A DNA stretch of 64,000 bases from Chloranthus sessilifolius (Eukaryota > Streptophyta > Magnoliopsida > Chloranthales > Chloranthaceae). Shown piece by piece: positions 6,842 to 56,964 of this stretch. Where the stretch lies: positions 38,008,287 through 38,072,286 of the forward strand of contig CM037590.1 of assembly GCA_021018995.1 (NCBI GenBank). Direction: 5' to 3'. Position 1 is the stretch's first letter; every line of letters starts with the position of its first letter. The position numbers were made by a program, and so were the translations under genes. A model generated the notes under the pieces. That model made no database searches and was not told the origin of the DNA. It saw only the letters and a list, made by a program, of their open reading frames with translations.

Positions 6842-7809
6842 TGACGCAGGACAGTACCCTAAACTACGTGAATGCGATGATTGACTTTGCCGAAATTAAA
6901 TTGAATTAAATTAAATAATAAAACTCACAAAATATAACGAATACCTTGGCGTTCGCAGTATACCATTGGAGGCTCACGTATAATTCAAGTTGGGTTTAGT
7001 CCGGGCGTTAGATCTGTTAGGTGGCAACACAGATCAATCCTAGAGATAGAACTCTAGGTTTTTTCAGATTAGGGCGCTCACGATTCAAAGATGGAATCTC
7101 TGGTCCTTCTATGGCTTATGGGATTGGGTCGAATCAATGGAGTAGGGAAAAGTTAGGGTTTTGGGAATCGGGTAGTTGAATGGGAGATGGTAGATTTAGG
7201 TTGTTTGAAGTAAAGTACGGAAGATAGATTAGAAGGATAAACAGTAAGGATAGATTGTGGGCTTCACACTCTTGGCTTCACACCAAACCCTTTTCGGGAA
7301 GAAGAATCACTCTTCGCAGAAACTCATCTCAAGTCTCAAAAGCAAACACTCATTCATTCAATAATCAATAATTAATTACATTGTTTAACTTAAGGACCTT
7401 ATATAGGAGTCCTTTCAAACGAAAATAAAACCCTAAAACAATTACCAAAAGGACAAGTATGCCCCTAAAAGTTCAGTTCGAATTTTAGAAAAAAAATCTA
7501 AAAAATTTAAGTTGCGCGATTTCGATCGATCGAATGGAAATTCGATCAATCGAGTATATAATTCGATTGATTGAATTATATACTCCAGAACATATGTTTT
7601 CCTCTCGTTGCCGTTCGATCGATCGAAATAGGACTTCGATCGATCGAATTTGTTGGTTCCTCTAAATTCTTCATCTTTCGCTTCTTTTCGCCTCTTTCGC
7701 CTATTTCTGATTTCCATTCGCCTAATTCTGATTTCCGCTCCGCTTCTTCCGCTGTCGGTACACGCGAAAAGGTTCATATTCGATGTCTACGATGTCGATG
7801 TCCCCGTCA
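6842..7809 (-). mobile_element. 3' LTR of the 6842-12304 element
   Basis: It begins TGACGCAGGAC and ends GTCCCCGTCA on the plus strand (968 bp). A TATA box (CTTATATAGG, read on minus as CCTATATAAG) lies near 7400, with TCGATCGATCGA clusters upstream of it. The adjacent AATTCTCCC at 7810 is the purine tract when read on minus. Confidence 0.9.
7519..7650 (-). repeat. TCGATCGATCGA cluster in LTR U3
   Basis: Several copies of TCGATCGATCGA and relaxed versions (TTCGATCAATCGA, TTCGATTGATTGA) occupy the U3 region 120-250 bp upstream of the LTR TATA box on minus. The equivalent LTR at 11310-12304 has them at about 11993-12165. Each motif is self-complementary and contains CpG. Confidence 0.85.
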
Positions 7810-9265: not shown

Positions 9266-10275
9266 TAACGGGGACGCCGACATCGTAGACATCGGATATG
9301 GACCTTTTCGCGTGTACCGACGTTGGAAGAAGCCGAATGGAAATCATCAGAACTAGGCGAAAGATGAAATTCTGGAGAAAATTTGAGGAATACAGCAATT
9401 TCGATCGATCGAAATTTTCGATCAATCGACTTGCTAAATCGATCGATCGACTGGCATCGAAAGAGTATAGAGTTATGGAGTGAAATTTCGACCGATCGAA
9501 TGGACTATTCGATCGATCGAAATTTTCAAGTCGATCGATCGAAAGTCGACGGCGATTTTTCATAGAATTATGAAATTTCGATCGATCGATTTTTTTCATA
9601 GGAGCTTAATTTCGAACTTTTGTTTTAAGGGTTTATTTGTCTTTTATTTATTAATTGTTTTAGGGTTTTCTTTTATTGAAATGACTCCTATATAAGGTCC
9701 TTAAATTGAACAATGTAACTAGTTATTGATTATGAATGAAAAGCTTTTGCTTGTGTGCGCTTGAGATGAGCCTCTACGAAGAGTGATTCTTCTTCCCGAG
9801 AAGGGTTTGATGCAAAGCCAAGGGTGTGAAGCCTGCCAATCTATCTATCTATCTTTTATCTTTGCTTGTGTGATTCTACAACCCCAAATTGACCATCATC
9901 CTTGTGAAATCCTAAACCCTAATTGTCCCTGAATCCTTGAATCGATCCAATTCAACAATCGTAGATCCCAACTGAGTTATTAAACCTTTCGCACCAAATA
10001 CTCAGAGGAAACCAGCAATCCCATCATTGAGTCGTGAGCGCCCTAATCTGGGAAAACCTAGAGTTCTATCTTTAGGATCGATCTGTGCTGCAACCTAACG
10101 GATCTAGCGCCTGGACTAAACCCTACCTGAAGCATACGTGATTCTCCCATGGAATACTACGAAAACCTGAGGTATTCGTTATATTTTGTGAATTTTATTA
10201 TTTAATTTAATTCTAATTTAATTCTGGCAAAATCAATCATATCATTCACGTAGTTTAGGGAACCGTTCTACGTCA
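9266..10275 (+). mobile_element. Solo LTR nested in gag of the 6842-12304 element
   Basis: It starts TAACGGGGACGCC (TG changed to TA) and ends GTTCTACGTCA (1010 bp). CTTAG at 9261-9265 and 10276-10280 is a perfect target duplication. It is the same LTR family as its host in the opposite orientation, since the host LTR's inner end reads the same in reverse complement. A TATA box (CCTATATAAGG) lies near 9690. A single LTR with an intact duplication indicates LTR-LTR recombination after insertion. Confidence 0.9.
9401..9592 (+). repeat. TCGATCGATCGA cluster in the solo LTR U3
   Basis: Seven or more copies of TCGATCGATCGA or one-base variants fall in 190 bp, ending about 100 bp before the LTR TATA box. 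The architecture matches the sister LTRs at 7519-7650 and 11993-12165. Confidence 0.85.
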
Positions 10276-10740: not shown

Positions 10741-11074
10741 TCACAAACACAACCCAGATACAATTCTATGGACCACACAACAGTTGAGGAATTTTAACAA
10801 ACATATGACGTGCACACAAATGAAGATACAAAAGACATGACATCAAAGACATCGAAATGACATACACATGCGACTCAAAATGAATAAGGACTTTTGTCAG
10901 ACACAAAACGTGCGCAATGATGAATACAAATGACATAAGATTCCATTAAATTAAAATGACATGCACATATGAACTGAAAGATATGCATAAATAAAAACTG
11001 AAAGAAGATGCAATGAAAATTAAAATGCTATGGAATTAAATGTCACACCAATATGCCCTAACCTAGAACCTAGG

Positions 11075-11309
11075 GCTCTGATACCAAAACTGACGCAGGA
11101 CGGTACCCTAAACTACGTGAATGCGATGATTGACTTTGCCGAAATTAAATTGAATTAAATAAAATAATAAAACTCACAAAATATAACGAATATCTTGGCG
11201 TTCGCAATATTCCATTGGAGGCTCACATATAATTCGAGTTGGGTTCAGTCTGGGCGTTAGATCCGTTAGGTTGCAGCGCAGATCAATCCTAGGGCTCTGA
11301 TACCAAAAC
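11075..11309 (-). repeat. 219-bp tandem duplication of primer-binding site plus LTR edge
   Basis: GCTCTGATACCAAAACTGACGC occurs at 11075 and again 219 bp later at 11294. The first LTR copy stops after about 200 bp, at AATCCTAG, where the sequence jumps back to AGGGCTCTGATACC. CCTAG is present on both sides of the junction, so the duplication probably arose through 5-bp microhomology. The complete LTR starts at 11310. Confidence 0.85.
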
Positions 11310-12304
11310 TGACGCAGGACGGTACCCTAAACTACGTGAATGCGATGATTGACTTTGCCGAAATTAAATTGAATTAAATTAAACAATAAAACTCACAAAA
11401 TATAACGAATACCTTGGCGTTCGCAGTATTCCATTAGAGGCTCACGTATAATTCGAGTTGGGTTCAGTCCGGGCGTTAGATCCGTTAGGTTGCAGCGCAG
11501 ATTGATCCTAGAGATAGAACTCTAGGTTTTTCCAGATTAGGGCGCTCACGATTCAAAGATGGAATCTCTGGTCCTTCTATGGCTTATGGGATTGGGTCGA
11601 ATCAATGGAGTAGGGAAAAGTTAGGGTTTGGGGAATCAGGTAGTTGAATGGGAGATGGTAGATTTAGGTTGTTTGAAGTAAAGTACGAAAGATAGATTAG
11701 AAGGATAAACAGTAAGGATAGATTGTGGGCTTCACACTCTTGGCTTCACACCAAACCCTTTTCGGGAAAAAGAATCACTCTTCGCAGAAACTCATCTCCA
11801 GTCTCAAAGGCAAACGCTCATTCAATCAATAATCAATAATTAATTACATTGTTTAACTGAAGGACCTTATATAGGAGTCTTTTCAAACGCAAATAAAACC
11901 CTAAAACAATTACCAAAAGGACAAGTATGCCACTAAAAGTTCAGTTCGAATTTCAGGAAAAAAAAAATTAAAAAATTTAAGTTGCGCGATTTCGATCAAT
12001 CGAAAATGAAGTTCGATCGATCGAAAGTTAAACTTGATCGATCGAAAAACATATTTCAAAAGTTCGCCGCAGAAATTCGATCGATCGAATTATATACTCC
12101 AGAACATATGTTTTCCTCTCGCTGCCGTTCGATCGATCGAAATTTCAATTCGATCGATCGAATTTGTTGGTTCCTCCAAATTCTTCATCTTTCGCCTATT
12201 TCTGATTTCCATTCGCCTAGTTCTGATTTCCGCCCCGCTTCTTCCGTCGTCGGTACACGCGAAAAGGTCCATATCCAATGTCTACGATGTCGGCGTCCCC
12301 GTCA
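11310..12304 (-). mobile_element. 5' LTR of the 6842-12304 element
   Basis: It begins TGACGCAGGACGG and ends GTCCCCGTCA (995 bp), followed by target duplication TTAAC. It is close to the left LTR apart from scattered substitutions and a different arrangement of U3 TCGATCGA motifs (about 11993-12165). Confidence 0.9.
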
Positions 12305-21249: not shown

Positions 21250-22145
21250 TGACGCGGGACGAGAACCCTAAATGCGTGAATATGATTTTTAATGTGATTT
21301 GTCGAAATTAAATAAAATTAATTCAAGAGTAATATCAAAACTATCACGATACCTTCGGGTTCATAGAATTTCGGTAAGTAAGTCACACGAGATCCGAATA
21401 GGGTGTCCAATCCGATGCGCAAGTCCCGTTAGATTTGAGGCGGGATCGGGCCTAGAGATAGGACTCTAGCTTTTCCAGGTTTAGGCGCGCGTCTTCGATC
21501 CGATATAGATTCACGGCTCGAACCAAGGTTGCGGAATTAGATTATAGGTTTGTAATAGGTTTTGGTTTTGTAACGGGTTTATGGTTTTCGGATCGGTTTA
21601 TGGTTTGGAAAAGGGTGTTGGCTATGTTAGATTTAGGGTTTCAAAAGGTTTTAGGTTTTGAGAAGGCAAGGAAACAATTAGGCTACGGTGTAGGGAAGCA
21701 AGCACAAATCGAGAGATAGCAAATATGATAGAGAAAATAACAATGACTTTTGGGAATCACTCCCTTGGCCTCACACCAAACCCATCTCAGGCAAAGATTA
21801 CTCAAGCATAAAAGCATTCAAATAATCAATCAACTAAATTAAAAGGTGTTTACAAGCCTCTATATATAGGCCACCAATAATTAAACTCGAAATAAGAAAG
21901 TCCTAATATTAGTAAAACACTAAAAGGCAACTTTCGCATAGAAAAAAAAGAAAATCCCATCTGAAATCGTTGGCGGCGTAGCAAAAAATATGACGTCTTT
22001 TATCCTTTGTCACGGTATTTAATGTAGGAGTCGGCGTGTTGTCCTTTTTGTTCCTTTCTCCTCCGGGCTTTCTCTACGCTTCTTCCAACGCTGGTAAAAC
22101 TGATGTAGTCCGAATCCAATGTCCATATGTGTGGCGTCCCCGTCA
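21250..22145 (-). mobile_element. 3' LTR of the 21250-27804 element
   Basis: It begins TGACGCGGGACG and ends GTCCCCGTCA. A TATA box (CTATATATAG) lies near 21870. It is nearly identical to the right LTR except over about 21975-22055. Confidence 0.93.
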
Positions 22146-26885: not shown

Positions 26886-27804
26886 TAACGCGGGACGGGA
26901 ACCCTAAATGCGTGAATATGATTTTTAATGTGATTTGTCGAAATTAAATAAAATTAATTCAAGAGTAATCTCAAAACTATTACGATACCTTCGGGTTCGT
27001 AGAATTTCGGTAAGTAAGTCACACGAGATCAGAATAGGGTGTCCAATCCGATGCGCAAGTCCCGTTAGATTTGAGGCGGGATCGGGCCTAGAGATAGGAC
27101 TCTAGCTTTTCCAGGTTTAGGCGCGCGTCTTCGATCCGATGTAGATTCACGGCTCGAACCAGGGTTGCGGAATCAGATTATGGGTTTATAATAGGTTTTG
27201 GTTTTGTAACGGGTTTATGGTTTTTGGATCAGTTTATGGTTTGGAAAAGGGTGTTGGCTATGTTAGATTTAGGATTTCAAAAGGTTTTAGATTTTGAGAA
27301 GACAAGGAAACAATTAGGCTACGGTGTAGGGAAGCAAGCACAGATCGAGAGATAGTAAATATGATAGAGAAAATAACAATGACTTTTGGGAATCACTCCC
27401 TTGGCCTCACACCAAACCCATCTCAGGCAAAGATTACTCAAAGCATAAAAGCATTCAAATAATCAATCAACTAAATTAAAAGGTGTTTACAAGCCTCTAT
27501 ATATAGGCCACCAATAATTAAACTCGAAATAAGAAAGTCCTAATATTAGTAAAACACTAAAAGGCAACTTTCGCATAGAAAAAAAAAGAAAATCCCGTCT
27601 GAAATCGTCGGCGGCGGCGCGCTGCAAAAATATGACAGCGTGCTGCTGTCACGGCGCGCTGCGGTAGGAGTCGCGGCGTGCTGCAACGCATTTCTTTGTG
27701 TCCATCTTTCTCCTTTCTCCTCTGGACTTTCTCTACGCTTCTTCCGTCGCCGGTAAAACTGATGTGGTCCGAATCCAATGTTCATATATGTGGCATCTCC
27801 GTCA
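26886..27804 (-). mobile_element. 5' LTR of the 21250-27804 element
   Basis: It begins TAACGCGGGACG (TG changed to TA) and ends ATCTCCGTCA (919 bp), with TATA near 27500. A GC-rich stretch at 27605-27690 with repeated GCGCGCTGC / GCGTGCTGC differs strongly from the partner LTR. Confidence 0.93.
27605..27690 (-). repeat. GCGCGCTGC motif cluster in LTR U3
   Basis: Four to five copies of GCGCGCTGC-like motifs (GCGCGCTGC, GCGTGCTGC, CGGCGCGCTGC, GCGGCGTGCTGC) fall in 85 bp upstream of the TATA box on minus. The 3' LTR lacks them at the matching place. Confidence 0.7.
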
Positions 27805-34098: not shown

Positions 34099-36216
34099 TC
34101 AGTTTTCTCGGTAGCCTTTTCCGGTGTTGTGTTGACGGTCAAGTAAGAAGTTGTGGCCCATCATTGTATTTGTCTTATTAACTTCATTGAGTTTGTCACC
34201 TTGACAACTTCCATCAGCCAGATTCTCTTCTTTCTCAACACTTTCTTTTGCACTAATAATTATTTTCTGACATTCTTGTATTACGCCCAAAGCAAATTTG
34301 TATGTACGTGTGGATGATGACCCTTCCTCTGCACACTTAACCGCTTCAAGACATAAACTGTTGAACCGCAGGAGCGAGGAGTCATGAGAGCTACTTCGCA
34401 ATAGAGTGCTGTTTTCATTGATTGCACCACTTCGCTTTGCATTCCTTGACCACCGTGTCAAAAAGTAATGGGGTGGTATCTGCAAAACTCCTTCCATTCT
34501 GAAAACTAATAGAAGATGTCTACAGGGAATCCCGGAAAATTCAAACATTTTGCAGCTACAACTTGCTTTCACTTCAAGAGCAATAAATGTGACCTTGTAT
34601 GACTTGTCATCCTGCCCATATCTCGTCACTTTGTAGGTAGCAATCCCTTTATCAGCAGCTTCATCACATTTTTTCGCAACGTAATGCCATGTCTCATTGA
34701 ACTCATCTTGGAACCTCAAAAATATTTTTCGCGTATAAAACTCAGCTGCGTGTAGTTCCATGATTGAAGTGCTTGTCACAAGAGGTTTGGTATACCTCGT
34801 ATTAAAATCCGCCTCCAATTCTTTCTCATAATGGCTTTCTAAAGCTTTTTCGTATTGTCCTACAAATGTTTGAAGAGTGGTCTTTGAAGTCACATACCCA
34901 TCAAAAAATAGATTCATGCTTTCTCTTTGTTGAGCTGTGCTCATATCTGCAAAAAATTTGTCCTTTAGGTACAACGGAACCCATTGTTGGCGAACATCAA
35001 ACAATGACTTGAGCCAATCATCATTATTAAGATTATACCTGTTGAGGAGTAAATGCCAATTTTTTTCGAACTCCTCACTTGTCTCTGTTTCGTAGATGCA
35101 TTTATGGAAATCACCATCAAAATTTTCATTCTGATTCATTACATGGAACAACTTATCTAGCTTCTTTTTTTGAATGTGCCGCATACAAAATCGGTGATTA
35201 GTATTTGGAAACACACGTTTAACTGCTGTTGTGATGGCCTTGTCATAGTCAGTTGATATAGAGATGGGATACCGTCCATGCATAACCACTAGCCATGTTT
35301 CGAATAACCAAATGAAAGAAGCTTCACTCTCATTTGATAGAAACGCACAACCAAACAACACAGATTGGCCGTGATGGTTCAACCCTGTGAATGAGGCAAA
35401 TGGCAATCGAAATTTATTTGTCTTGTATGTTGTGTCGAAGGTTACCACATCACCAAAGTATTCATAGGCCATTCGCGACCTTACATCTACCCAGAAAACA
35501 TTTGTTAGTCGTTCATCCTCATCAACTTGTATCGCATAAAAAAAAGTGGGATTCTCAAATTGCTTACGTTTGAAATATTCTAATACCCTTTGAGCATCAT
35601 TCCCAAATGTCCATTGGCGTTCTGTTCTTAGTAAAGTCCTACAATCTTCCAAGATGAACCCATCATTCATAGCTCCACCACATTCTTCTATGGACATTGA
35701 TGTCATACGGCGTGGTGGTGGAATTCCTACCTTATCGAAACTATTGATCAGTCTTCTTTGTGAGCTACTTATATGCCTATGTGATCGAATTAGGTGCACT
35801 TTGCTTGGGCTCTCTAACTCATGACAGTGTGTCCTTTCAAATTTACAAATAACCCATTTCCCACTTTCTTTCTTTTTAATCATCATCATTGCCTTGCAGC
35901 CTACCCTTAAGATCGCTCTTGGTCGTCTGTTGTTGTAATTCTTACCCACTCCATTAGGAAAACCAGATTTGACACATTCAAATGTCCTTGATATAACTGT
36001 TTTGTCTTTCCTTGAAGAGTATGAATGGCCAACACGTATGCCAAAGCCCATACGCCGAGCATATTCATTATAGAAATCTTTTCCATCATCAGCTGAATTG
36101 AATTCCATACCTACTTTTGGAATTCCAGTTGTATCATCTTCGGCAGGCACAGTTGGCAAAGATGTAGGGCGGGTGGCATTAGAACATGCAGCAATATTAC
36201 TTGCAGCAAATTCCAT
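34099..36216 (-). CDS. FAR1-RELATED SEQUENCE (FRS) transcription factor
   Basis: An intact 705-residue protein of the FHY3/FAR1 family, plant transcription regulators domesticated from MULE transposases and nuclear by family. Domains: FAR1 DNA-binding zinc domain, residues about 45-140 (FYNEYARRMGFGIRVG; C81, C107, H130/H132 as likely zinc ligands); MULE transposase-derived domain, about 250-350 (VVTFDTTY and ISTDYDKAITTAVKRVFP); SWIM zinc finger, about 541-575 (CSCKMFEFSGIPCRH, CxC-x9-CxH); Ser-rich and coiled C-terminus. I chose ATG at 36216 (MEFAASN). The longer frame to 36258 crosses TTTCATTTCAG, a strong splice acceptor ending at 36229, so the extra 14 codons are intronic. Which FRS member it is cannot be told by eye. 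Its single-exon coding region has no breaks, unlike the mobile MULE at 40455. Confidence 0.92.
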   Translation of the reverse strand: MEFAASNIAACSNATRPTSLPTVPAEDDTTGIPKVGMEFNSADDGKDFYNEYARRMGFGIRVGHSYSSRKDKTVISRTFECVKSGFPNGVGKNYNNRRPRAILRVGCKAMMMIKKKESGKWVICKFERTHCHELESPSKVHLIRSHRHISSSQRRLINSFDKVGIPPPRRMTSMSIEECGGAMNDGFILEDCRTLLRTERQWTFGNDAQRVLEYFKRKQFENPTFFYAIQVDEDERLTNVFWVDVRSRMAYEYFGDVVTFDTTYKTNKFRLPFASFTGLNHHGQSVLFGCAFLSNESEASFIWLFETWLVVMHGRYPISISTDYDKAITTAVKRVFPNTNHRFCMRHIQKKKLDKLFHVMNQNENFDGDFHKCIYETETSEEFEKNWHLLLNRYNLNNDDWLKSLFDVRQQWVPLYLKDKFFADMSTAQQRESMNLFFDGYVTSKTTLQTFVGQYEKALESHYEKELEADFNTRYTKPLVTSTSIMELHAAEFYTRKIFLRFQDEFNETWHYVAKKCDEAADKGIATYKVTRYGQDDKSYKVTFIALEVKASCSCKMFEFSGIPCRHLLLVFRMEGVLQIPPHYFLTRWSRNAKRSGAINENSTLLRSSSHDSSLLRFNSLCLEAVKCAEEGSSSTRTYKFALGVIQECQKIIISAKESVEKEENLADGSCQGDKLNEVNKTNTMMGHNFLLDRQHNTGKGYREN

Positions 36217-40454: not shown

Positions 40455-40554
40455 GGGAAATTTACACTTTCGGCCCTATATGTTTGCGTATTTGCATAAA
40501 CGGCCCTATAGTTTTAATCCTTGCATAAATGGCCAGCTCCAAGCCTAGCCGCCT
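40455..40554 (+). repeat. Left terminal inverted repeat of the MULE
   Basis: 100 bp, starting GGGAAATTTACACTTTCGG and ending AAGCCTAGCCGCCT. It matches the right end (48333-48432) in reverse complement with about a dozen substitutions. Confidence 0.92.
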
Positions 40555-40786
40555 GCACATCAGATATATCCCTATATATATATATGCTTCTCTATGCAAG
40601 CATTGAATCTAGAATTTCTGTATCATTTTTTAACGATTTCTATCTCTCTTGGAAAGCGATTTCGAGATTCCACTAAAGGTCGTATAACATAGAGAATACA
40701 ACAGGTTAGGTAAGATATCGAATACAATATCTTTTTAAGTTATTGTTTTTCCAATTTTTCAAAACATTGTAGGTAGTCCAAGATAT

Positions 40787-41060
40787 ATAAGTTATCAGTC
40801 GATATCTTAAGTTATCGACCGATAACTTAAGATATCGGTGGATATCTTAAGATATCGAGCGATATCTTAAGATATCGGCCGATAACTTAAGATATCGGTC
40901 GATATCTTAAGATATCGGTCGATAACTTAAGTTATCGCTCGATATTTTAAAAGAGGATTTTTTTTTAAAAATTTTTGGATTATGGTTTACGTTAAAAGTC
41001 CATCGGCTATATATCTTAGGATATCGGCCCGATATCTTAGGATATCGAGCGATATCCTAT
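40787..41060. repeat. 20-bp palindromic array A of the MULE
   Basis: About eight head-to-tail 20-bp units, TTAAGWTATCGRYCGATAWC, run at an exact 20-bp period over 40797-40950. Two or three more units of the form TTAGGATATCG follow at 41010-41056. The unit has two dyad centres, TTAA and CGRYCG. The array lies between the left TIR and the transposase frame. Confidence 0.95.
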
Positions 41061-41196
41061 GATTGACAAAAACGCTAAAGTTTTCATTCCTTTAATTTTT
41101 TAATAATATTTTTAAATAATTGTAGCGCTAAGTCAAGTATAACTCTTTATAAACAACTAATTTTAATTTTAATTTTGTAAATATTGTAGGTTGAAA

Positions 41197-43815
41197 TGGA
41201 TGTTCCCCTTCTTTGCCATTTTGATTTAAATGCTGAGAGATAATACTTACAATGGAGGACATCGGAGGATTGTCACTGTCACGGAGAATATATCATTTGA
41301 TGAGTTTATAGAGAAAATGTACAAAGTCGACTTGACACTAAAAGAACATTCTATTACACTTATCGCTTCATTACGCATAGGGAATGAGCTTGTATTTGCC
41401 AATTGTCCGACTCGATGATCTTACAAACTTATTTAGAGCATATCGTATCGGTGATGGTGTTATAAATATTTATATCGAAAATCATTAGTCACCATCGTAA
41501 TGTAAATTTTGCCTTTAGAAACATTTCAACTGCTCAAGGAAACAAACGAAGATGATCATAGTGTGGAACAAAATATTTGATTGAAAATCAAGGAATACGT
41601 ATGAAGAGGAGAACATTGTTGCAATAATAGCCGACGATGATAGAAATATGAATATAGATTTCGCCCTAGAAACTTCCTGAGCAACGCTATTCGACATTCC
41701 AGTGAAGGCGATGAAGATCAAGGATATTGTCATCAAATGAATCCGATGCATGATACATCTCAGTTCAACTTCGATTCGGTAAATCAGTGGGAAACGTTTT
41801 TAGTCGGCCTTAGTCCATATCAATGGCCTTCCGAACAAATAGCTTCGGAGCCAACGAAAATCGAGCCTTCAATGTAATGACCTCTCATACATCAAACATT
41901 CCCGCGGCTAACATCAATCCAAACAATCGCACATCGACGCTCAATCCCAATCACGTAATAACCATCCGATGATGGCGGTGATAGTGATCCTGAAAATAAT
42001 GAAGTTTCGCCGTCTCCCACTTCGCGTGTTTATACTAATAGGGGAATTGATCAACCTCTGGTGGACGAAGACTATCAGCTTAATGACTCGGAAGGAGAGT
42101 ATATGGATTCAGACGATGAGGAACTGTATGAAGGGGGAACGATTACCATTGGTCAGGCGTTTAGAAATAAGAAATCATTTCAAAAAGTTCTTAAAGAATT
42201 TGCAATGACAAATAATTTTCAGATTAAACCAATAAAAACCAGTCCTCTTCTAGTTACTACGAGGTGTGTTGAAGTAGGATATGCTTGGCGAATACATGCA
42301 TCGAAATTAGTAGGCGTAGACACGCTTGTCAGAAAACTTTTCACCCGGAACACACGTGCGGAATGCCAGCTTTTGGAAGCGGACATCGCCAATGTACGAC
42401 ATCGTGGATAGCTTCATTCGTTAGAGATAAGCTATTAAAGGGTTTTGACGAGACTCCTGCTTCAATAATTTTTTATATTGAAAAAAAATACGGTATAACA
42501 GTAGGTTACTGGAAAGCATGGAGAGGAAAAGAAATGGCGTTGAATGACATCCGAGGTAGCTGGAATGAGCAATTTAAGATGTTACCGTCATATGTTGCCG
42601 AATTACGGGTCGATCCGCATATATACGCAGAATTGTGTCTCGAGCCTGATAATGCATTTCAGAGATTCTTCGTAGCATTCGGACCTTGCATTCGAAGCTT
42701 TCGTAATACTTTACGAAGAATAATTGCGGTAGATAGAACGCATTTGCATGGACGATACAAGGGAGTGTTGTTAATAGCTACGGGGATAGACGGGAATAGA
42801 CATTTATTTCCTATAGTGTTCGGCGTTGTACCGAAAGAAAATGAAGACCATTGGACATGGTTTCTTGATCTATTAGGGAGACGTGTAATCGGTGAATTTG
42901 AATAACAGTTTGTTTTGATATCGAATGACGAGAAAGGTTTGATGGAAGCGAGGAAAAGTTTTCCTAATGCCTTTCCAAATACTCTAAATCTGTTTGATAA
43001 ATATAAGGATACAATCTCTAGACCGTTTTTTTGGGTTGCTGCCCGTGCATTTTCAGAAGCAAAATTTAAAAGAATTATGCGAAAAATAGAAGACGACGCC
43101 CCGCCGAAATGTACAAAATGGATTAAAGAAATTGGTGATCATTTCTGGGCACGCGCTTATTTCCAAGAGAGACGTTATGATATGTTGACAACTAATATAG
43201 CTGAAAGCATAAATAGTGTGTTGAAAATAGCAAGGGAGGAACCGATTGTGAGCATGTTAGAAACTATTCGCACAAAAGTAGTCGAATTTTATCTTCGTCG
43301 TCAGGAGAAAAGAAATAAAATAACACATGTGTTAACACCGATGGCAGAAAAACACATAAAAAGAAATTCAGGATGGGCCCGTCGAAAAAACGTCATACCA
43401 TATGGTCGTGATATATTTCAAGTTAAATGTGGTGATTACACTCACAGTGTCGATCTAGAATCGCGAACATGTACATGTAGACGTTGGGCTATTCTTGGAT
43501 TACCATGTTCACATGTGATCGCCACATTATCGCGCCGAAACAGAGAAAGAGAGATCCCCCAATTTTGTGAACACTGGTTTACCAGTGACTTATTTAGGGA
43601 AACTTATAAAGAACACTTTGTCCCGACCGTTGACAAGCGCCAATGGACTTCGCAAATAAAAGACATTCAAGTTTTGCCTCCCCACAAAATACGTCAAGCC
43701 GGCCGTCCGAAGAAAAGGAGAACAAGATCTAAAGGCGAAGTTCGACAACTACAATGTAAAAATTGTAACAAGTACGGTCATAATCGTTGCTCGTGTAAAT
43801 TTGTTAATATTTGAA
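41197..43815 (+). pseudogene. MuDR-type MULE transposase, disrupted
   Basis: Parts seen in order: an N-terminal segment in broken frames from about 41197 (VTVTENISFDEFIEKMYKV); an acidic stretch and the MuDR-type zinc DNA-binding region (42061-42411, then HPEHTCGMPAFGSGHRQC in the next frame); a DDE transposase core (IIAVDRTHLHGRYKG, about 42720, and VVPKENEDHWTWFLDLL); a SWIM finger (CTCRRWAILGLPCSH, about 43470); a basic tail and C-terminal CCHC knuckle (CKNCNKYGHNRC). Damage: a frame shift near 42325-42345 and an in-frame TAA at 42903. The second catalytic Asp, normally in an ISDR-x-KGL context, reads ISNDEKGL here, so Asp may be replaced by Asn. Expression would be under the left TIR side. 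Confidence 0.9.
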
Positions 43816-44170
43816 ATTAACTTATATTACTTCAAAGTTTGAGATTGAAAACAGATTGAGATTAGATTAGACCTAGTGGCAATCGAGCTTCCAAATGATC
43901 TCATTATAGAAGAGTATTTTTTTTTTCTCTTTTTCTTTCCTTCAACATATACAGATTAGACCTCAATAAAAGAGCGATCAACATCCGCCAATTAATTAAT
44001 ATATTTTTTTGGACTAATAATTAAGTTTTAGAATTGTGATTGAAATATATTGCTGTGCTTCTTAATAAATCATTTATTTAAACAGGATTTGAAGTTGTCA
44101 AATTCGCCCCTAATCTACTAATGATTGGCATAGAGCCAAACCAAAGATATCTAGCTTCATAATTACAAAA
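43816..44170. other. Gap between transposase and array B
   Basis: AT-rich 3' flank of the transposase, with no further coding sequence. Confidence 0.5.
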
Positions 44171-44498
44171 GGTAGATGACTTAAAATCATCGGCCGATAT
44201 CTTAAATCATCGTTCGATATTTTAAGATATCGTCCGATATTTTAAGTCATCGGCCGATATTTTAAGTAATCGGACGATATTTTAAGTCATCGGACGATGA
44301 TTTAAGATATCGGCCGATGATTTAAGATATCGGCCGATGACTTAAAATATCGACCGATGACTTAAAATATCGGCCGATGACTTAATATATCGGACGATAT
44401 CTTAAATCATCGGCCGATAATTTAAGCTATCGTTCGATTACTTAAGATATCGACCGATGACTTAAAATATCGGACGATGATAAATCATCGGCCGATTG
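44171..44498. repeat. 20-bp palindromic array B of the MULE
   Basis: About 16 units at a 20-bp period (occasional 19-21), consensus TTTAAGWYATCGGCCGATGA. It differs from array A by YATCG/CGATR arms and a mostly CGGCCG centre. It lies between the converging ends of the transposase and ULP genes. Confidence 0.95.
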
Positions 44499-46262
44499 AA
44501 ATTTTTTCAAGAGAGGAAGGCTCCGTTGATAAATCAGGCAAGGTGAAATCTAAACTTTAGATAAGTAATTGTTAGACAAATAAGATAAATTGATAACAAC
44601 GAAAATGAAAATTATACAAGTTAATAAAAATTAATAAAATTAATTATTTACAATTTCATCAAAAAATATCTTTACAAAAGTCTAAAAAATTTTACAGATA
44701 TATTTAACTCTTCTTCCCAAACGTGCACATTAGATGTCCGATTTCGGCTCTAAATTGTTGCATATATTTATCGTCGAAATCAATAGGCCGTTGTTGGGAG
44801 AAGTATTCTATATATTTCAAAACGTATACACCGCAATCCCAACCGTTTTCTTGGATCGGGAGAACGACATTGTTGAACGCCGATACCTTCCACTGTTGAT
44901 CGAAAGCTGACTTCAAACCGATAGCGTAAAGAAGGCGCGGAAGGTGATTCAATAGACATTCTTTATGCGCTTCAAACCTTTTTGAGCACTCTCGGTCTGC
45001 TGGATCTATTAACTTAATTTCTCGATCAATTAATAAAATTATAGCCAACGCCCAGTGGCTATGTTTTTGGCTATGCATCGGAAGATAAATCTACACATAA
45101 ACGGAACCGAAATTTTAAATAATAAATTTTATTTAAAAGCCGTTAACGTTAAATAAAGCGAAGTTTAGTATTCAAAAACTTACCGTTCCACAGTCGATCG
45201 CGTGAATTCCGCGGATATTATTTGTCAATAGTGGTTCCATCGGCTTTGAATTGTTACGAACATTCCATTCGTCACAATAGGCCTGTCACCTATCGAGGTC
45301 GCTGAACGCAGCTATACCTTCATTATCAATATATTTTTCAAATTTTTTCTCGTCTGCCATAAACAAGGTCTGAAACAGGATAATGTAGTAAGTAAATAAA
45401 TTAGAAGAAGTTAATCAAGAGTAGTGATTGAAAAGACAAATAAAAGAAACAAACGAGCTTTCAATAAATATTTGAAACCTTACCAGGGCATACGCAGAAG
45501 CGAACCAGCTTTTTTCGGCATTGGCCGTAAATATTGAATCGTTTATAACTTCAAAGACTCTCGAGTACGCGTCGATGACTTCATTGTCGAGCCACGAGCG
45601 TCCTTTGAGAACCTTCAAAAGAGCAACTGTGATCTCAACACCCCTGATAGTATTGACGATCACATTGTCTTCGTTCTCCGGCTGATTCCAAAAACTAAGC
45701 ATATACTTTTGCTCCATTGATTTTGCCCCATCCTCCTCCTCCTCTATAACCAATCTTGGTTTTTTTATTAACGCTTTAGTGGTCGGAGACTTTCTCTTCT
45801 TACGAGCACGCAAGTCATAACCTTCGGCTTCATTTTTTGCAGATGATAGTTTCACTATAATTGTTTTTACTGATACCGGCTGTGACTCACGAGAAGGCTG
45901 CGTAAGAGGAGCACCATCATCACCCACATCAACCAAGGGTTGTTTAGTAAAGAGGAGCGATGAGGTTTTGGGCGCAGTTTAGTGGCAGTAGATTTATGGG
46001 TAAGTTGAGGAGCGGCGGGTTTTGGGGCAGTTGATTGTTGTCTAGGTTGAGGAGCAGTGGGTTTTGGGGCACTTGATTGATGGCTTGGCTGAGGAGCAGT
46101 TGGTTTTGGGGCACTGGACTGATGGCTTTGTTGAGGAGCAATGGGTTTTGGGGCAGTAGACTGATGGCTTTGTTGATGAGTGGTGGGTTGAGGGACAGTT
46201 GATTGAAGGTAAGTGGGTGAAGGAACGAAGGTGTCAAAGAGAACAGAGGTTAAAATATTATC

Positions 46263-46558
46263 CTGCATAATTGCAAAAAAAAATACATTACAAAAAATAA
46301 AAAATAAAAAAAATCACATTATCGACAGATAATTTAACTAATCGGTTGATAATTTAAATTAGCGGCCGATAATGTAACTTATCGGTCGATAATTTAAATT
46401 ATCGTCCGCTAATGTACATTATCGATCGACTATTTAAATTATCGTCCGATAAGTTACATCGTCGGACGATAATTTCCATCGTCGGACGACAAGCTAATTT
46501 TACATTAATTTGTAAAGAATTGATTTTGTTCTAAATTTGAAAAGTCTTGGTTTGGTAC
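46263..46558 (-). other. Intron of the ULP-like gene, filled by array C
   Basis: Donor AAG|GTACC at 46558 and acceptor ATGCAG ending at 46263 join exons in phase 0. About 170 of 296 bases are the 20-bp palindromic array. Confidence 0.7.
46321..46492. repeat. 20-bp palindromic array C of the MULE (intronic)
   Basis: Eight to nine units at an exact 20-bp period, consensus TAATTTAAATTATCGGTCGA. Later units drift to ACATCGTCGGACGA. The variant differs from arrays A and B. Confidence 0.93.
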
Positions 46559-47946
46559 CTTTCTTAAATGAGAGATGACAGCATCAAGATCCTTCCGTAT
46601 TGCTTTATTTTCTTCTTGTAAGGCCTTCTTATCTCTCCCTAGTTGTTCAATGGTGAGTGCTTGCCCTTTGAGCAGCGTAAATGCACGCCGGAATTCTTTT
46701 TTCATTTCTTTTACAGCTATGCGGAGCGTCTTGCATTCTTTTCTTAGTTCCGTCACTTCTTTGGTTAGGTGCGGTTGCCTAACTGGCTGCTCTCTTGTTA
46801 GCTGGGGCATAATATCCGTTTTCGTTTTCGTCGCTGTAATCTTCGTCATCCTCATTGTCGTCATCTCGGCTAATCGGCTCTTCGGCTCTTTCTTCCGAAC
46901 GTGTCGCATGACTTGGGATATCATCATATTCATCTATATTTTCTTCGGAGTAAGACTCTTCTCTTTCCTCGGTCTCTTCCTTCTTATTTTCCATTTCTCT
47001 TCGAATAAAAAAGTATCGAACCCATTTATACTGTAATTCGTGCTTCTCAACTTCAAGCTCTAAAATCACTTTAGACTTAAGAAATTTTTCTCTATATAAA
47101 TTAGGATTACGGCTGAATTTCGGGCCTTCCCATTTCATTAGCCTTGGAAATGGTTCTTTAAGCCCAATAGGAGCGGTGGCGACTGCAGGAAAGTGCTCAA
47201 ACGCCCAAATCTGTAAGGCGATAGTGCATCCGTAGATGTTGTATTGCCCATTTTCTGACCTTTTCGCCATTTCCCTTCTGCCACTCGCTTTTGATATACT
47301 ATATAATAAATTATTATAAACTATCAGGCCCCACGGTAACTTGTTGAACTCTTCAATGTTATCTACTAATTCTAAGTACCGTGTATCTACTTCCTGGTAT
47401 GTGTCCGGAAGTAAAAAAGAACATACGAAAAATAATAATGATAGTTTCAAAAAATCATCGTTGGATAAATCAGCACTGTCAATAATTTCTTCAATACAAG
47501 ATCTTTTCGCCAACTTCCCCCGAAAGAATTTGTATCGAATAGTTGTTTCCTCTTTTACGGCCACCTTCTCAGACTCAGGTTCCGTCAACATGTTGAGGCC
47601 TAAAATCAAGGCTATATCGATCTGTTGCAGGAGTACATTGGTGTTCTTGACCTTGAAAACATTATCTTCAACCCAAAAACTTAAAATAGCGTCAACCAAG
47701 TCTCCAACGAATCCTAATTTCTCATTCATCCTAAATAGATGACCGAATACTGAATCATCTAATATTTTCTTTCTCTCTTCGTTACAGTGCATGTAAAATT
47801 TCCTAACACCAACTCCAGAACATTTTCCGATGGGCTTTAGAGTCATGGTCATTTTCAATCACTTAGTAGGAACTGCAATATAAATAAAAAGCAATTAATA
47901 AACAAAAGAAGTGATTTTGAAAAAACTACTAATCCCCTAACTTACC

Positions 47947-48066
47947 GATAACTTACCGATAATTTAAATTATCGGTCGATAATTTAAGTTAGCAATCGAT
48001 AATTTAAGTTATCGATCGATAATTTAAGTTATCGATCGCAAACTTAAATTATCGGTAAGTTATCGG
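47947..48066. repeat. 20-bp palindromic array D of the MULE, hairpin-like
   Basis: Five to six units TAATTTAAGTTATCGATCGA just upstream of the ULP-like start codon. The outer ends are inverted copies (CCGATAACTTACCGATAATT against AATTATCGGTAAGTTATCGG), so the whole 120 bp can fold on itself. Confidence 0.92.
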
Positions 48067-48332
48067 ATTAGGTGGGAAACATTGGGGATTACTAAATGTG
48101 CTGAAATGTAAAAAAAATAAATTACCTGGAAATGTAATGTGACCTTTGTGACCTTTTACCGCTTTGTCGCCGCTAAGTCGCCGCTCTCTTGTTTTTTTCA
48201 GAAAAGTTAAACTTAAAAAGTAACAGTAACTAATGATATGTAAAAGTAGCTTTTATACTCTCTTTTAAAGGGCGGTGGAATTTTTTTTTTTATATTATTT
48301 AAAATAGGTTCTTGCTGACGTGGAGCAGGCGG

Positions 48333-48432
48333 AGGCGGCTAGGCTTGAAGCTGATCATTAATGCAACGGTTGAAACTATAGAGCCGTTTCTGCAAATACG
48401 CAAACATATAGGGCCGAAAGTGCAAATGTTCC
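48333..48432 (-). repeat. Right terminal inverted repeat of the MULE
   Basis: Reverse complement of the left TIR, ending in CCCTATATGTTTGCG and CACTTTCGG motifs when read inward from 48432. The target duplication TTATTTTAA follows. Confidence 0.92.
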
Positions 48433-48799
48433 TTATTTTAAAGATCAAAATGCAATAACATAGTTCAATTAAGGAATGATGGCTCTGGCGGACATTTAAA
48501 CACCAAAATGGTGTTTAAACACTCTTCCACCGTTAAATCAAACTTTGGATCTCATTAACATGGGATCTACTATTATGTCATGTGATGTGTATTAGTGATC
48601 AATTTAATTACGGTGACAATTTATTATTGAGTAAATTACCTTTCAACATCTGATCTTCCACACAGACAATATAGATTACTCATATCTTTGGCGTTGATCA
48701 TTTAAAATTTTAAATGATGGTCAGAGGGTTGGACCCTTTAATTTAAAGGGTCATTAAATGACCTTTTATAAGATATAAGGGTCACATAATGGCTGTCAA

Positions 48800-50880: not shown

Positions 50881-51897
50881 TGATTGGGACAATATGATTA
50901 AGAGCGTTGGATTTGGGCCGCAAAAGATTTTCCAGCGTCGGAAGGAGCGGGAGGGAAATCAGAGTCGAAGAACCGGAAGAAACTAAGAATTTGGAGGGTG
51001 TTTTGATCGATCGATCGATCCTAGAAAGTCGATCGATCAATTGACCATTGTGGCTTCTGAATTTTTGGTGAATTTTTGTTCTCAGTCGATCGATCGAATG
51101 TGAACTGAAGCTTTAAGCGATTTATAACTTTATAAATCGATTTCAGAATCGATCGATTGATTTGTCGCATAAGTGAGATCCACCAAAGACGGAATTTAGT
51201 TTTTTTGGGGGCAAACTTGTCTTTTAGTGTTTACTTATTTTAGGGTTTTCTTCTTTTGAGACCTACTATATACGGTCCTTATAACTTGGTAATAGGGGAT
51301 GATTAATGAATGAAAAATTGAGAGCTTGCTTTTGTGCAAACCCTAGAAGGCTTGTGCAGAGTTTTCGATCGAAAGAGTGAATCTTTCAAAACTTGAGGAG
51401 TGAATCTTCATTTCTCGTGCAACTTGGTACGAAGTCGACGTACAGCCTTGGTGAGAAGCCTCGTGTGAAGCCGTGGAGCCCTATCTTCCTCTTCTATCAT
51501 TTTTTCTAATTATTGTCTGGTAATATCTTCCCTATTTGGTTTGATAAAAATCCATAACCCCAAACCCTTATTAATTTGTATCTTTTGATCTACCCCTTTT
51601 TGGATGAATTAATCCTTTGAGCCTTTGTTTTCAACAAGAGGAGTCAATAGACGATCCTGCAATTGTCATTTGGTGCCCTAAAATAGATCGAAACTCGAAT
51701 TCTTTCATCGAAGCCGTTTTTCTTGATCGAAGAATTTTAATGCATGCAGACGCTAAAATGGAATTATTCTAGTTATTTTTAATTGAATTCATTAAATTAT
51801 TTTGTGTTTGAGTGATTTCGAATATTTCCGTTATTCAATTTAATATGAAATTAATCTCAACTTGCATTAATTAGGGTTTAGCGTTTGCCCTGCATCA
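50881..51897 (+). mobile_element. 5' LTR of the 50881-56964 element
   Basis: It begins TGATTGGGACAATATG and ends CCTGCATCA (1017 bp). A TATA-like CTATATACGG lies near 51268. TCGATCGATCGATC-type motifs lie at 51005-51155, upstream of it. The right LTR has matching motifs at about 56040-56222. Confidence 0.92.
51005..51155 (+). repeat. TCGATCGATC cluster in LTR U3
   Basis: Four to five copies of GATCGATCGATC-like self-complementary motifs lie 110-260 bp upstream of the LTR TATA-like box, as in the LTRs at 7519 and 9401. Confidence 0.85.
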
Positions 51898-55272: not shown

Positions 55273-55935
55273 ATGGTAAGTGACGAGGAGGATGAGATTC
55301 CTGTGAAAACCGTAGGTTGTATTAGGAAAATTTCTATTCCCGAAGTGGGTGGTTGTAGTGTGTCCATACCGCATGAGTTGTTAGAGTCTGTAAGAACGTG
55401 TCAACATTTTAACTTGCATGGGATTAACAATCAAATTTTATTAAATGATGAAAATACACAGAATGTCACTAACATAACGAATTTGTTTAATGAGTTTAAT
55501 AATGACAATTTTGTGTTAATTCATGATAGTCCCGAGCATGTGAAACTTTCTCCGATATTGAAAAGAGGTAATGATGGAAGTCTAGACTTTCCTCTAGAGA
55601 AGGGTAATCATCAGATAGTTGCGGTGGAAGATCTTACACTTATTCTAGATCCTGCAATTATGTCCTTTGACCCATTCCTTGTTACCCACACAATCAAGTC
55701 AAGCCCATTTAACCAATTCATAACCCGTACCCTACTTGTGCAATATGAGAAGAGGTTGGATGAGAAGGTTTTAGAGTTTCCAAACTTCACTACCAATGTG
55801 GATAAACGTCATGCATACCTCACAACATGGAAAGGCAAATCGGGAGCTGAGCATTCAAAGCATACCATACGTGGGTTCTACAACTTATCGGAGATGAGTT
55901 CTCCCACTCGAGGAGAATTGATGGGGACATCATGA
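55273..55935 (+). CDS. Unknown ORF of the non-autonomous gypsy element
   Basis: A 220-codon open frame from ATG 55273 (MVSDEEDEIPVKTVGCIRK) to a stop just inside the right LTR. Composition is ordinary and protein-like (mixed hydrophobic and charged, NVTNITNLFNEFNNDNF, FPNFTTNVDKRHAYL). I see no protease DSG, reverse-transcriptase YxDD or integrase motif. It occupies the place of pol, downstream of the gag knuckle. A stop (TAA) separates it from the gag-linked frame at about 55258. It may be a captured or highly diverged sequence; no function is assigned. Confidence 0.5.
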   Translation: MVSDEEDEIPVKTVGCIRKISIPEVGGCSVSIPHELLESVRTCQHFNLHGINNQILLNDENTQNVTNITNLFNEFNNDNFVLIHDSPEHVKLSPILKRGNDGSLDFPLEKGNHQIVAVEDLTLILDPAIMSFDPFLVTHTIKSSPFNQFITRTLLVQYEKRLDEKVLEFPNFTTNVDKRHAYLTTWKGKSGAEHSKHTIRGFYNLSEMSSPTRGELMGTS

Positions 55936-56964
55936 TCAATAGCGACGAATTTGGGTCGCAAATGATTCTCCAGCGTCGGAAGGAGCGGAAGGGGAACCAA
56001 AGTTGAAGAACTGGAAGAAACTGAGAATTTGGAGGTGTTTTGATTGATTGATCGAGGGTGCTTTGATCGATCATCAATCCCAGAAAGTCGATTGACCACA
56101 GTGGCTTTTGAACTTTTGGCGAATTTTTGTTCTTAGTCGATCAATCAACTCTAAATTTTTGATCGATCGAGTGTGAACCGAGACTTTGAGCGATTTGTAA
56201 CTTTATAAATTGATCGATTTGTCGCGTAAGTGAGATCTGCCAAAAGATGAAATTTAATTTTTTTGGGGGCGAACTTGTCTTTTAGTGTTTATTTGTTTTA
56301 GGGTTTTCTTCTTTTGACGCCTACTATATAAGGCCCTTATAACTTGGCAATAGAGGATGATTAATGAATAATGAATGAAAATTTGAGAGCTTGCTTTTGT
56401 GCAAAGCCAAGAAGGCTTGTGAAGAGTTTTCGATCAAAAGAGTGAATCTTTCAAATCCTGAAGAGCGAATCTTCATTTCTCGTGCGACTTGATGCGAAAC
56501 CAACGTACAACCTTGGTGAGAAGCCTCAAAATCCATGGAGCCCTATCTTCCTCTTTTACCATTTTCTCTAATTATTGTCTGGTAATATCTTCCCTATTTG
56601 CTTTGATAAAAATCTATAACCCCAAACCCTTATTAAGTTATATCTTTTGATCTACCCCTTTTTGAATGAATTAATCCTTTGAGCCTTTGTTTTCAAACCC
56701 AAGAGGAGTCAGGAGATGATCCCGTAATTGTCACTTGGTGCTCGAAACTAGATCGAAACTCGAGTTCCTTCATCGGAGCCGTTTTTCCAGATCGGAAAAT
56801 TTTAATACATGCAAACGCTAAAATGGAATTATTTTAGTTGTTTTTAATTGAATTCATTAAATTATTTTATGTGTTTGGGTGATTTCGAATATTTTCGCTA
56901 TTCAATTTAATCTGAAGTTAATCTCAACTCGCATTAATTAGGGTTTAGCGTTTGTCTCGCATCA
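55919..56964 (+). mobile_element. 3' LTR of the 50881-56964 element
   Basis: It begins TGATGGGGACATC and ends TCTCGCATCA (1046 bp), followed by ACCAA. By eye it is close to the left LTR, with scattered substitutions and small indels. Confidence 0.9.

Follow-up and report, generated by a model that had tools for sequence, protein, structure and literature searches.

A Mutator-like transposon occupying positions 40455-48432 (7978 bp) of a 64-kb stretch of contig CM037590.1 from Chloranthus sessilifolius, referred to below as the window, carries four arrays of a 20-bp palindromic unit in its non-coding regions, together with an antisense gene for a protein with PMD/DUF1985 and Ulp1-type protease domains. 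The analysis covers this single broken copy of the element within the window, and we consider it fairly probable that a Mutator-like element (MULE) with terminal inverted repeats (TIRs) here carries a VANC-type anti-silencing system that is sequence-specific and has the arrays as its cis target. The product of the antisense gene would have combined a PMD/DUF1985 protein with a Ulp1-type protease and, probably as a dimer, would have bound the dyad ATCGNNCGAT, which recurs every 20 bp in front of each gene, within an intron and in the gap separating the genes. With many copies bound together, the element would then have lost DNA methylation along its length. In this copy neither gene is intact, so the element seen here is a record of past or family-level activity. 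Taken as a whole, the system is probably a known means of evading host silencing in a new form.

Four arrays built on one palindromic site

The initial annotation, made from the sequence of the element, had described about 40 copies of a 20-bp unit in four arrays. We found 36 units on a fixed 20-bp grid (8, 15, 9 and 4 in arrays A1, A2, A3 and A4, respectively), and, besides these, strays, namely further cores (41044 and 44487) and, towards the ends of the arrays, degenerate copies, which makes the earlier figure of about 40 a fair one. All four arrays are present at the locations proposed, except that the first, taken for one continuous run, has a break at ~40951-41001. Because the grid is fixed at 20 bp, its 32 intervals between units are no evidence for the period, which was obtained with Tandem Repeats Finder (TRF) and by autocorrelation. 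The two leading periods are 20 and 40 in A2, A3 and A4, and in A1 the three leading ones are 40, 60 and 20, with deviations from the period at an 18-bp step ahead of 44487 and in the disrupted A1 tail. Twenty base pairs are about two helical turns, and work in eudicots by Sasaki and colleagues is said to deal with DUF1985, DUF287 and Ulp1 domains and with motif sequence, density and helical periodicity. As had been claimed, the arrays lie upstream of the transposase gene (A1), between the convergent genes (A2), in a predicted GT-AG intron of the antisense gene (A3) and a short distance upstream of its ATG (A4). Like VANC target arrays, these consist of a short motif repeated densely and in tandem within the non-coding regions of the element itself.

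One skeleton, TTAA-NNN-ATCGNNCGAT-NNN-TTAA, given in full by TTAANNNATCGNNCGAT, is common to 4/4 arrays. The consensus AA...ATCG..CGAT...TT is identical at twelve positions in all of them, and the spacers drift and differ among arrays, giving each array the variant of its own that had been noted. Of the two dyads proposed, TTAA and CGRYCG, the first and the ATCGNNCGAT core are constrained, but the centre is no fixed RY, as GC, GA, TT, AC and TC all occur there in A2. The order of the flanks flips within A2, where 9/16 units have one flank ending in TC and the other in AT (hand count), so that the units have a direction though the core has none. As a separate observation, A2 may be partly an inverted repeat of itself, with 83% identity over 133-bp arms; the evidence is weak, as other centres on unit dyads give 77-82%.

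The element has 27 exact copies of ATCGNNCGAT and the remaining 56 kb of the window 7; for the element, 500 dinucleotide shuffles gave a mean of 0.24 and a maximum of 3. Pairs of it exactly 20 bp apart number 18 in the element, 0 in any shuffle and 0 outside the element. All 55 copies of the half-site TTAANNNATCG in the window (both strands) lie in the element, with 0 in the remaining 56 kb. Longer matches are similarly placed: 24/24 exact copies of AANNNATCGNNCGATNNNTT in the window lie within the arrays, and so do 27/28 sites with at most one mismatch and 36/50 with at most two, the last class having 3 further sites elsewhere in the element (one of them at 41044) and 11 outside. Within the window the exact unit was not seen at unrelated places, as it would be in a plain satellite, the possibility against which the proposal was to be checked. 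The exact three-unit pattern had 0 matches in viral contigs and prokaryote genome contigs, collections whose negatives say little for a plant element.

Mismatches were counted for each of the 36 grid units against the consensus of its own array, separately for the 8 core bases and the remaining 12. The counts are 0/120 in the core and 54/180 in the rest for A2 (P = 2.3e-14), 2/64 and 13/96 for A1 (P = 0.022), 8/72 and 25/108 for A3 (P = 0.03) and 4/32 and 3/48 for A4 (P = 0.91, no constraint). With TTAA added to the core, they become 2/180 and 52/120 in A2 (P = 3.5e-22) and 2/96 and 13/64 in A1 (P = 1.4e-4). As the split was read off the data, the positions conserved in A2 were tested in the other three arrays, where pooled mismatches amount to 22/252 at these positions and 33/168 elsewhere (P = 0.0011). 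A further count was limited to changes between adjacent units, which discounts inherited variants; for conserved and remaining positions, respectively, it gave 3/84 and 19/56 in A1, 2/168 and 47/112 in A2, 20/96 and 24/64 in A3 (P = 0.017) and 6/36 and 3/24 in A4 (P = 0.79). A2 shows strong constraint on the core and TTAA and A1 clear constraint, whereas it is weak in A3 and the short array A4 gives no sign of it.

At least one CpG is present in 36/36 grid units, as expected from the claim that nearly every unit carries one. The two CpG slots of the core are intact in 67/72 cases (14/16 in A1, 30/30 in A2, 16/18 in A3 and 7/8 in A4), and CpG bases are mismatched at 5/144 positions compared with 58/216 in the spacers (P = 8.4e-10), the opposite of what decay of methylated CpGs alone would give.

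A convergent antisense gene with PMD/DUF1985 and Ulp1 domains

The antisense gene, on the minus strand and convergent with the transposase gene, specifies in order a PMD/DUF1985 domain, an acidic tail, a coiled-coil-like part, a 14-residue peptide repeat and a Peptidase_C48 domain. In Pfam searches, PMD was matched at 4.7e-11 (42.9 bits, cut-off 34.9) and DUF1985, over an overlapping stretch, at 9.3e-9 with a narrow margin (35.8 or 37.1 bits, cut-off 35.1). Peptidase_C48 is likewise above its cut-off, and all coiled-coil matches of the second piece are below theirs. The DUF1985/ULP protein of the initial annotation is therefore present in its DUF1985 and protease parts, and a lack of DUF1985 similarity, the outcome that was to count against the proposal, did not occur; DUF1985 is, however, not the best match, as PMD scores higher. 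When the protease exon is aligned to yeast Ulp1 (1euv), His, Asp, Gln and Cys are in place, which we take to be the catalytic residues.

The reading frame is broken by an in-frame stop (TGA, 45286-45288), a frame change near 45985 and a further one between ~46930 and 46780 that could be an unrecognised small intron. The PMD/DUF1985 exon has 0 relatives in a large protein set (1880 candidates), and an AlphaFold prediction of this part, made without an alignment, has a mean pLDDT (predicted local distance difference test) of 35.2. On its domain matches the protein seems related to the PMD and DUF1985 families and appears to be no close VANC. The features of the element are collected in Table 1.

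Table 1. Features of the element and its target site duplications (TSDs), in window positions
Feature	Position	Strand	Basis
Left TSD, TTATTTTAA	40446..40454		same sequence as 48433-48441
Left TIR	40455..40554	+	counterpart is 48333-48432
Array A1, 8 grid units of 20 bp, upstream of transposase	40788..40950		TRF, grid
Broken tail of A1, one intact core at 41044	41002..41055		TRF, grid
mudrA-like transposase gene region, in pieces	41230..43814	+	open frames and Pfam
PB1, weak, below cut-off (0.0062)	41230-41418	+	Pfam
DBD_Tnp_Mut, 8.3e-10	41962-42411	+	Pfam
MULE domain, 1.9e-9	42273-42905	+	Pfam
SWIM, 2.8e-9, with C-terminal CCHC-like knuckle	42906-43814	+	Pfam; knuckle by eye
Array A2, 15 grid units and core at 44487, between convergent genes	44181..44498		TRF (44181-44496), grid
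Ulp1-type protease (Peptidase_C48) exon	44704..45090	-	Pfam 7.2e-17; 1euv E 8.1e-8
Predicted intron	45091-45183	-	GT-AG; phase 0 by hand
Middle exons of antisense gene	45184..46262	-	frames; positions and phases by hand
Predicted intron	45370-45483	-	GT-AG; phase 0 by hand
42-bp coding minisatellite (14-residue peptide repeat), 5.5 copies	45977..46206	-	TRF, open frames
Predicted intron holding array A3	46263..46558	-	GT-AG; phase 0 by hand
Array A3, 9 grid units, inside predicted intron	46318..46493		TRF, grid
First coding part: PMD/DUF1985 domain, acidic tail, coiled-coil-like part in another frame	46559..47852	-	Pfam, frames
Array A4, 4 grid units and degenerate ends, ~100 bp upstream of antisense ATG	47957..48054		TRF, grid
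Right TIR	48333..48432	-	counterpart is 40455-40554
Right TSD, TTATTTTAA	48433..48441		perfect 9-bp target duplication

A proposed VANC-type system and the alternatives

VANC21 binds YAGTATTAY, a motif arrayed in one orientation and at high density in non-coding parts, and the tandem repeats of VANDAL21 lie upstream of VANA21 as well as in introns of VANC21 and VANB21 (Hosaka et al. 2017, PMC5735166). The same source documents AGTTGTCC/AGTTGTAC in VANC6 targets and tandem peptide motifs that often occur in VANC variable regions. The non-coding regions on which VANC acts are also those targeted by RNA-directed DNA methylation (Sasaki et al. 2023, PMC10398659). The element in C. sessilifolius resembles VANDAL21/VANC21 as described there (PMC5735166) in having a DUF1985 protein, dense short-motif arrays that precede the transposase gene and also occupy an intron of the VANC-like gene, and peptide repeats, and this match in array placement and peptide repeat is one reason for a VANC-type reading. 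Others are that a single skeleton persists in 4/4 arrays despite spacer differences, that changes avoid the core in A2 and the positions conserved in A2 hold elsewhere, and that the antisense product passes the PMD and DUF1985 cut-offs and has VANC21 (9lnj, 9lnk) as its sole match among 177635 distinct PDB sequences. A VANC21 crystal structure, then unpublished, was mentioned in a meeting report (PMC8756742). The reading is also favoured by the report that VANC genes bearing Ulp1 hypomethylate related elements through non-coding motifs (2026 review, PMC13317346).

Several observations weigh against a VANC-type system. The match to VANC21 is weak (E 0.074, or 0.059 with a shorter query) and not significant alone. 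The aligned VANC21 stretch is DUF1985 by Pfam (6e-18) without a PMD match, and the window protein scores higher for PMD than for DUF1985, so that it may be a remoter cousin with another function. The arrays were considered as copies of the known VANC21 and VANC6 motifs and this was rejected, as YAGTATTAY, AGTTGTCC and AGTTGTAC occur 0 times in the element on either strand; the site here is a CpG-containing dyad, in contrast to the one-way VANC21 motif (PMC5735166), and the element keeps its TIRs, whereas those of VANDALs are degenerated (PMC10398659). In the conservation counts, the off-grid or degenerate copies at 40971, 41013, 41044, 44168, 44487, 47951 and 48062 were omitted, the conserved/variable split was picked after the data had been seen and the A2 spacer differences are partly non-independent. 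Adding TTAA to the core leaves the difference in A3 not significant (16/108 and 17/72, P = 0.098) and gives no constraint in A4 (4/48 and 3/32, P = 0.59). Finally, CpGs of the TIRs are kept in both arms at 4/5 sites, and the ratio of observed to expected CpG is 1.08-1.47 in three coding stretches (0.79 and 0.89 in the flanks). CpG retention is thus a property of the whole element rather than of the arrays, and as proof of array hypomethylation it was rejected.

It is unlikely, in our judgement, that the transposase reads the arrays, for transposition or activation, as TnpA of Spm or MURA of MuDR would, with the antisense protein doing other things. The initial annotation had allowed for this reader, MURA lowers methylation at Mu TIRs and TnpA activates Spm (PMC10398659), both being encoded by elements whose methylation they reportedly counter, and one array does lie upstream of the transposase gene. 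Against it, the core was not found in the TIRs or subterminal stretches (best match 5/8 bases), where a transposase site would be expected, and the arrays here, absent from the element ends, are located also between the genes and in an intron of the other gene. The lack of the core at the ends favours a reader other than a TIR-binding transposase, and the candidate reader in the VANC-type reading is accordingly not the transposase.

Also improbable is that the arrays are ordinary minisatellites with no reader, which slippage and conversion have spread within one element. Tandem arrays can form and become homogeneous on their own, each array here has its own spacer variant, and spacer similarity in A2 drops with distance, from 0.71 for neighbours to 0.33 at 14 units; the weak or missing selective conservation in A3 and A4 also agrees with such an origin. 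Against it, changes avoid the core and TTAA in A1 and A2, one skeleton is kept in four arrays with different spacers, and the exact unit was not found outside the element in the window.

We regard it as quite improbable that a host transcription factor has its sites (TTAANNNATCGNNCGAT) clustered in the arrays, which would then form an enhancer driving the genes of the element. Two arrays are positioned upstream of the two genes, and enhancers are commonly built from palindromic dimer sites in arrays, but arrays in an intron and between convergent 3′ ends are untypical for promoters, and the largest and most conserved array, A2, is the one between the 3′ ends. Least of all do we expect the arrays to act as RNA, in read-through transcripts whose long hairpins feed or decoy small-RNA silencing: A2, into which transcripts of both genes could extend, folds at -180.1 kcal/mol (z = -22.5, with 0/100 shuffles as good), but such folding is expected of any array of palindromic units, and the spacers show no pairing covariation, with 61/108 pairs across the core (shuffle mean 56.3) and 45/96 across TTAA (49.4) over all arrays, and values below the shuffles in A2 (13/45 and 4/42, respectively). 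Selection of the spacers as palindromic pairs was likewise rejected on these counts, the core being a dyad set between 3-bp spacers.

Several parts of a VANC-type system of this kind are already known, namely the type of mechanism, ULP genes in TIR-MULEs and VANC systems bearing Ulp1; the palindromic CpG-containing site and the retained TIRs differ. ULP sequences occur in grapevine TIR and non-TIR MULEs, in both orientations, and in melon TIR-MULEs (Benjak et al. 2008, PMC2528002). The element described here is similar to these in having a ULP gene downstream of the transposase gene, which in the grapevine and melon elements is in either orientation, whereas the main text of that paper contains 'tandem repeat' 0 times and 'DUF1985' 0 times. 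The KIU/Kaonashi group of Ulp1-bearing VANDALs has a Ulp1 domain in a VANC-like gene antisense to the transposase, and motif-guided hypomethylation has been reported for it (PMC13317346). The premise of the initial annotation that such arrays in a ULP-carrying TIR-MULE would be wholly new was too strong, as ULP-carrying TIR-MULEs and Ulp1-bearing VANC genes are both in print, and on balance its interpretation is partly supported. For arrays of a 20-bp CpG palindrome in a TIR-MULE no description was found in the literature searched, and an earlier one is possible. PMD, often antisense, is present in several plant MULE groups with TIRs, and some VANDAL-group elements are listed with TIRs (PMC6446971); the capture of PMD by MULEs has been described, with a speculated anti-silencing role (PMC5418596).

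By its long TIRs, its 9-bp TSD and a mudrA-like transposase with DBD_Tnp_Mut, MULE and SWIM domains, the element is a TIR-type MULE. The two TIRs, each ~100 bp long, align over 103 bp with 88% identity, 3 bp of this alignment being part of the target duplication, and are thus neither degenerated or absent, as in VANDALs, nor missing, as in the non-TIR KI-MULEs, from which the element differs also in having a motif of its own. It shares with KIU and KI-MULEs a Ulp1 gene antisense to the transposase, in this case the minus-strand Peptidase_C48 gene. As the VANDAL trait of degenerated TIRs was looked for and not found, membership in VANDALs or KI-MULEs is not claimed. From VANDAL21/VANC21 it is further set apart by a PMD match stronger than DUF1985, the presence of a Ulp1 part and the ~100-bp TIRs.

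A more specific form of the VANC-type reading, which we hold to be doubtful, is a methylation-gated switch, in which a dimeric reader would bind a palindromic site with two CpGs, host methylation of the site would decide binding and binding would keep the site unmethylated. Many sites at a fixed 20-bp spacing would make the on/off state cooperative and heritable, in a lineage that, unlike VANDALs, kept long TIRs.

If a VANC-type reading is right, it would give an example of such a system in a Mutator element whose long inverted ends are retained. According to Sasaki et al., VANDALs have degenerated TIRs, with a causal link to VANC that is untested (PMC10398659), and the element would be a candidate counter-case to their statement. 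A target that is a clean dyad with CpGs would permit direct tests of methylation, spacing and dimer binding together, and might give another address for targeted demethylation in plants. The finding is a variant of a described mechanism, from a single broken copy.

The transposase gene and other features of the window

The transposase gene has a frame change at ~42335-42400 (by eye from open frames) and an in-frame stop at 42903-42905. Its last exon has 1 relative in a large protein set (266 candidates), a MuDR/MULE transposase of Tanacetum coccineum with 37% identity over 73% of the exon, and 0 confirmed relatives in viral contigs, where 2 stretches matched the pattern and neither was confirmed. 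A second copy of the element in the window was sought and rejected: blastn gave short matches, the best among those listed having E 1.2e-4 over 54 bp, and tblastn just a 25% transposase match over 121 residues and one 23-residue match. Elsewhere, a 232-residue open frame on the minus strand (34303-34998) contains a SWIM zinc finger (2.5e-10), is 25% identical over 121 residues to the MULE transposase of the element and resembles a piece of a host FAR1-related gene.

A second kind of element in the window has clustered CpG palindromes. These are TTCGATCGATCGAA palindromes, loosely clustered at 7514-7650, 9400-9600 and 12000-12160, apparently in promoter-side parts of repeated elements of the long terminal repeat (LTR) type; the 7.5-kb and 12-kb regions are 86-95% copies with a TATATA-like box ~100-130 bp away (by eye). 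Sites of the TCGATCGA type, some with one mismatch, are located at 51006-51152, 56162 and 56209, in direct repeats (50881-51897 and 55919-56964, 84% identical) that are possibly the LTRs of one retroelement. Another pair of direct repeats of ~0.9 kb (21252-22145 and 26888-27804), 92% identical and 4.7 kb apart, may also mark an LTR retroelement, and a 219-bp unit is tandemly duplicated at 11069-11511 (95% matches), adjoining a TGATACCA sequence that looks like the primer site of an LTR element (by eye).

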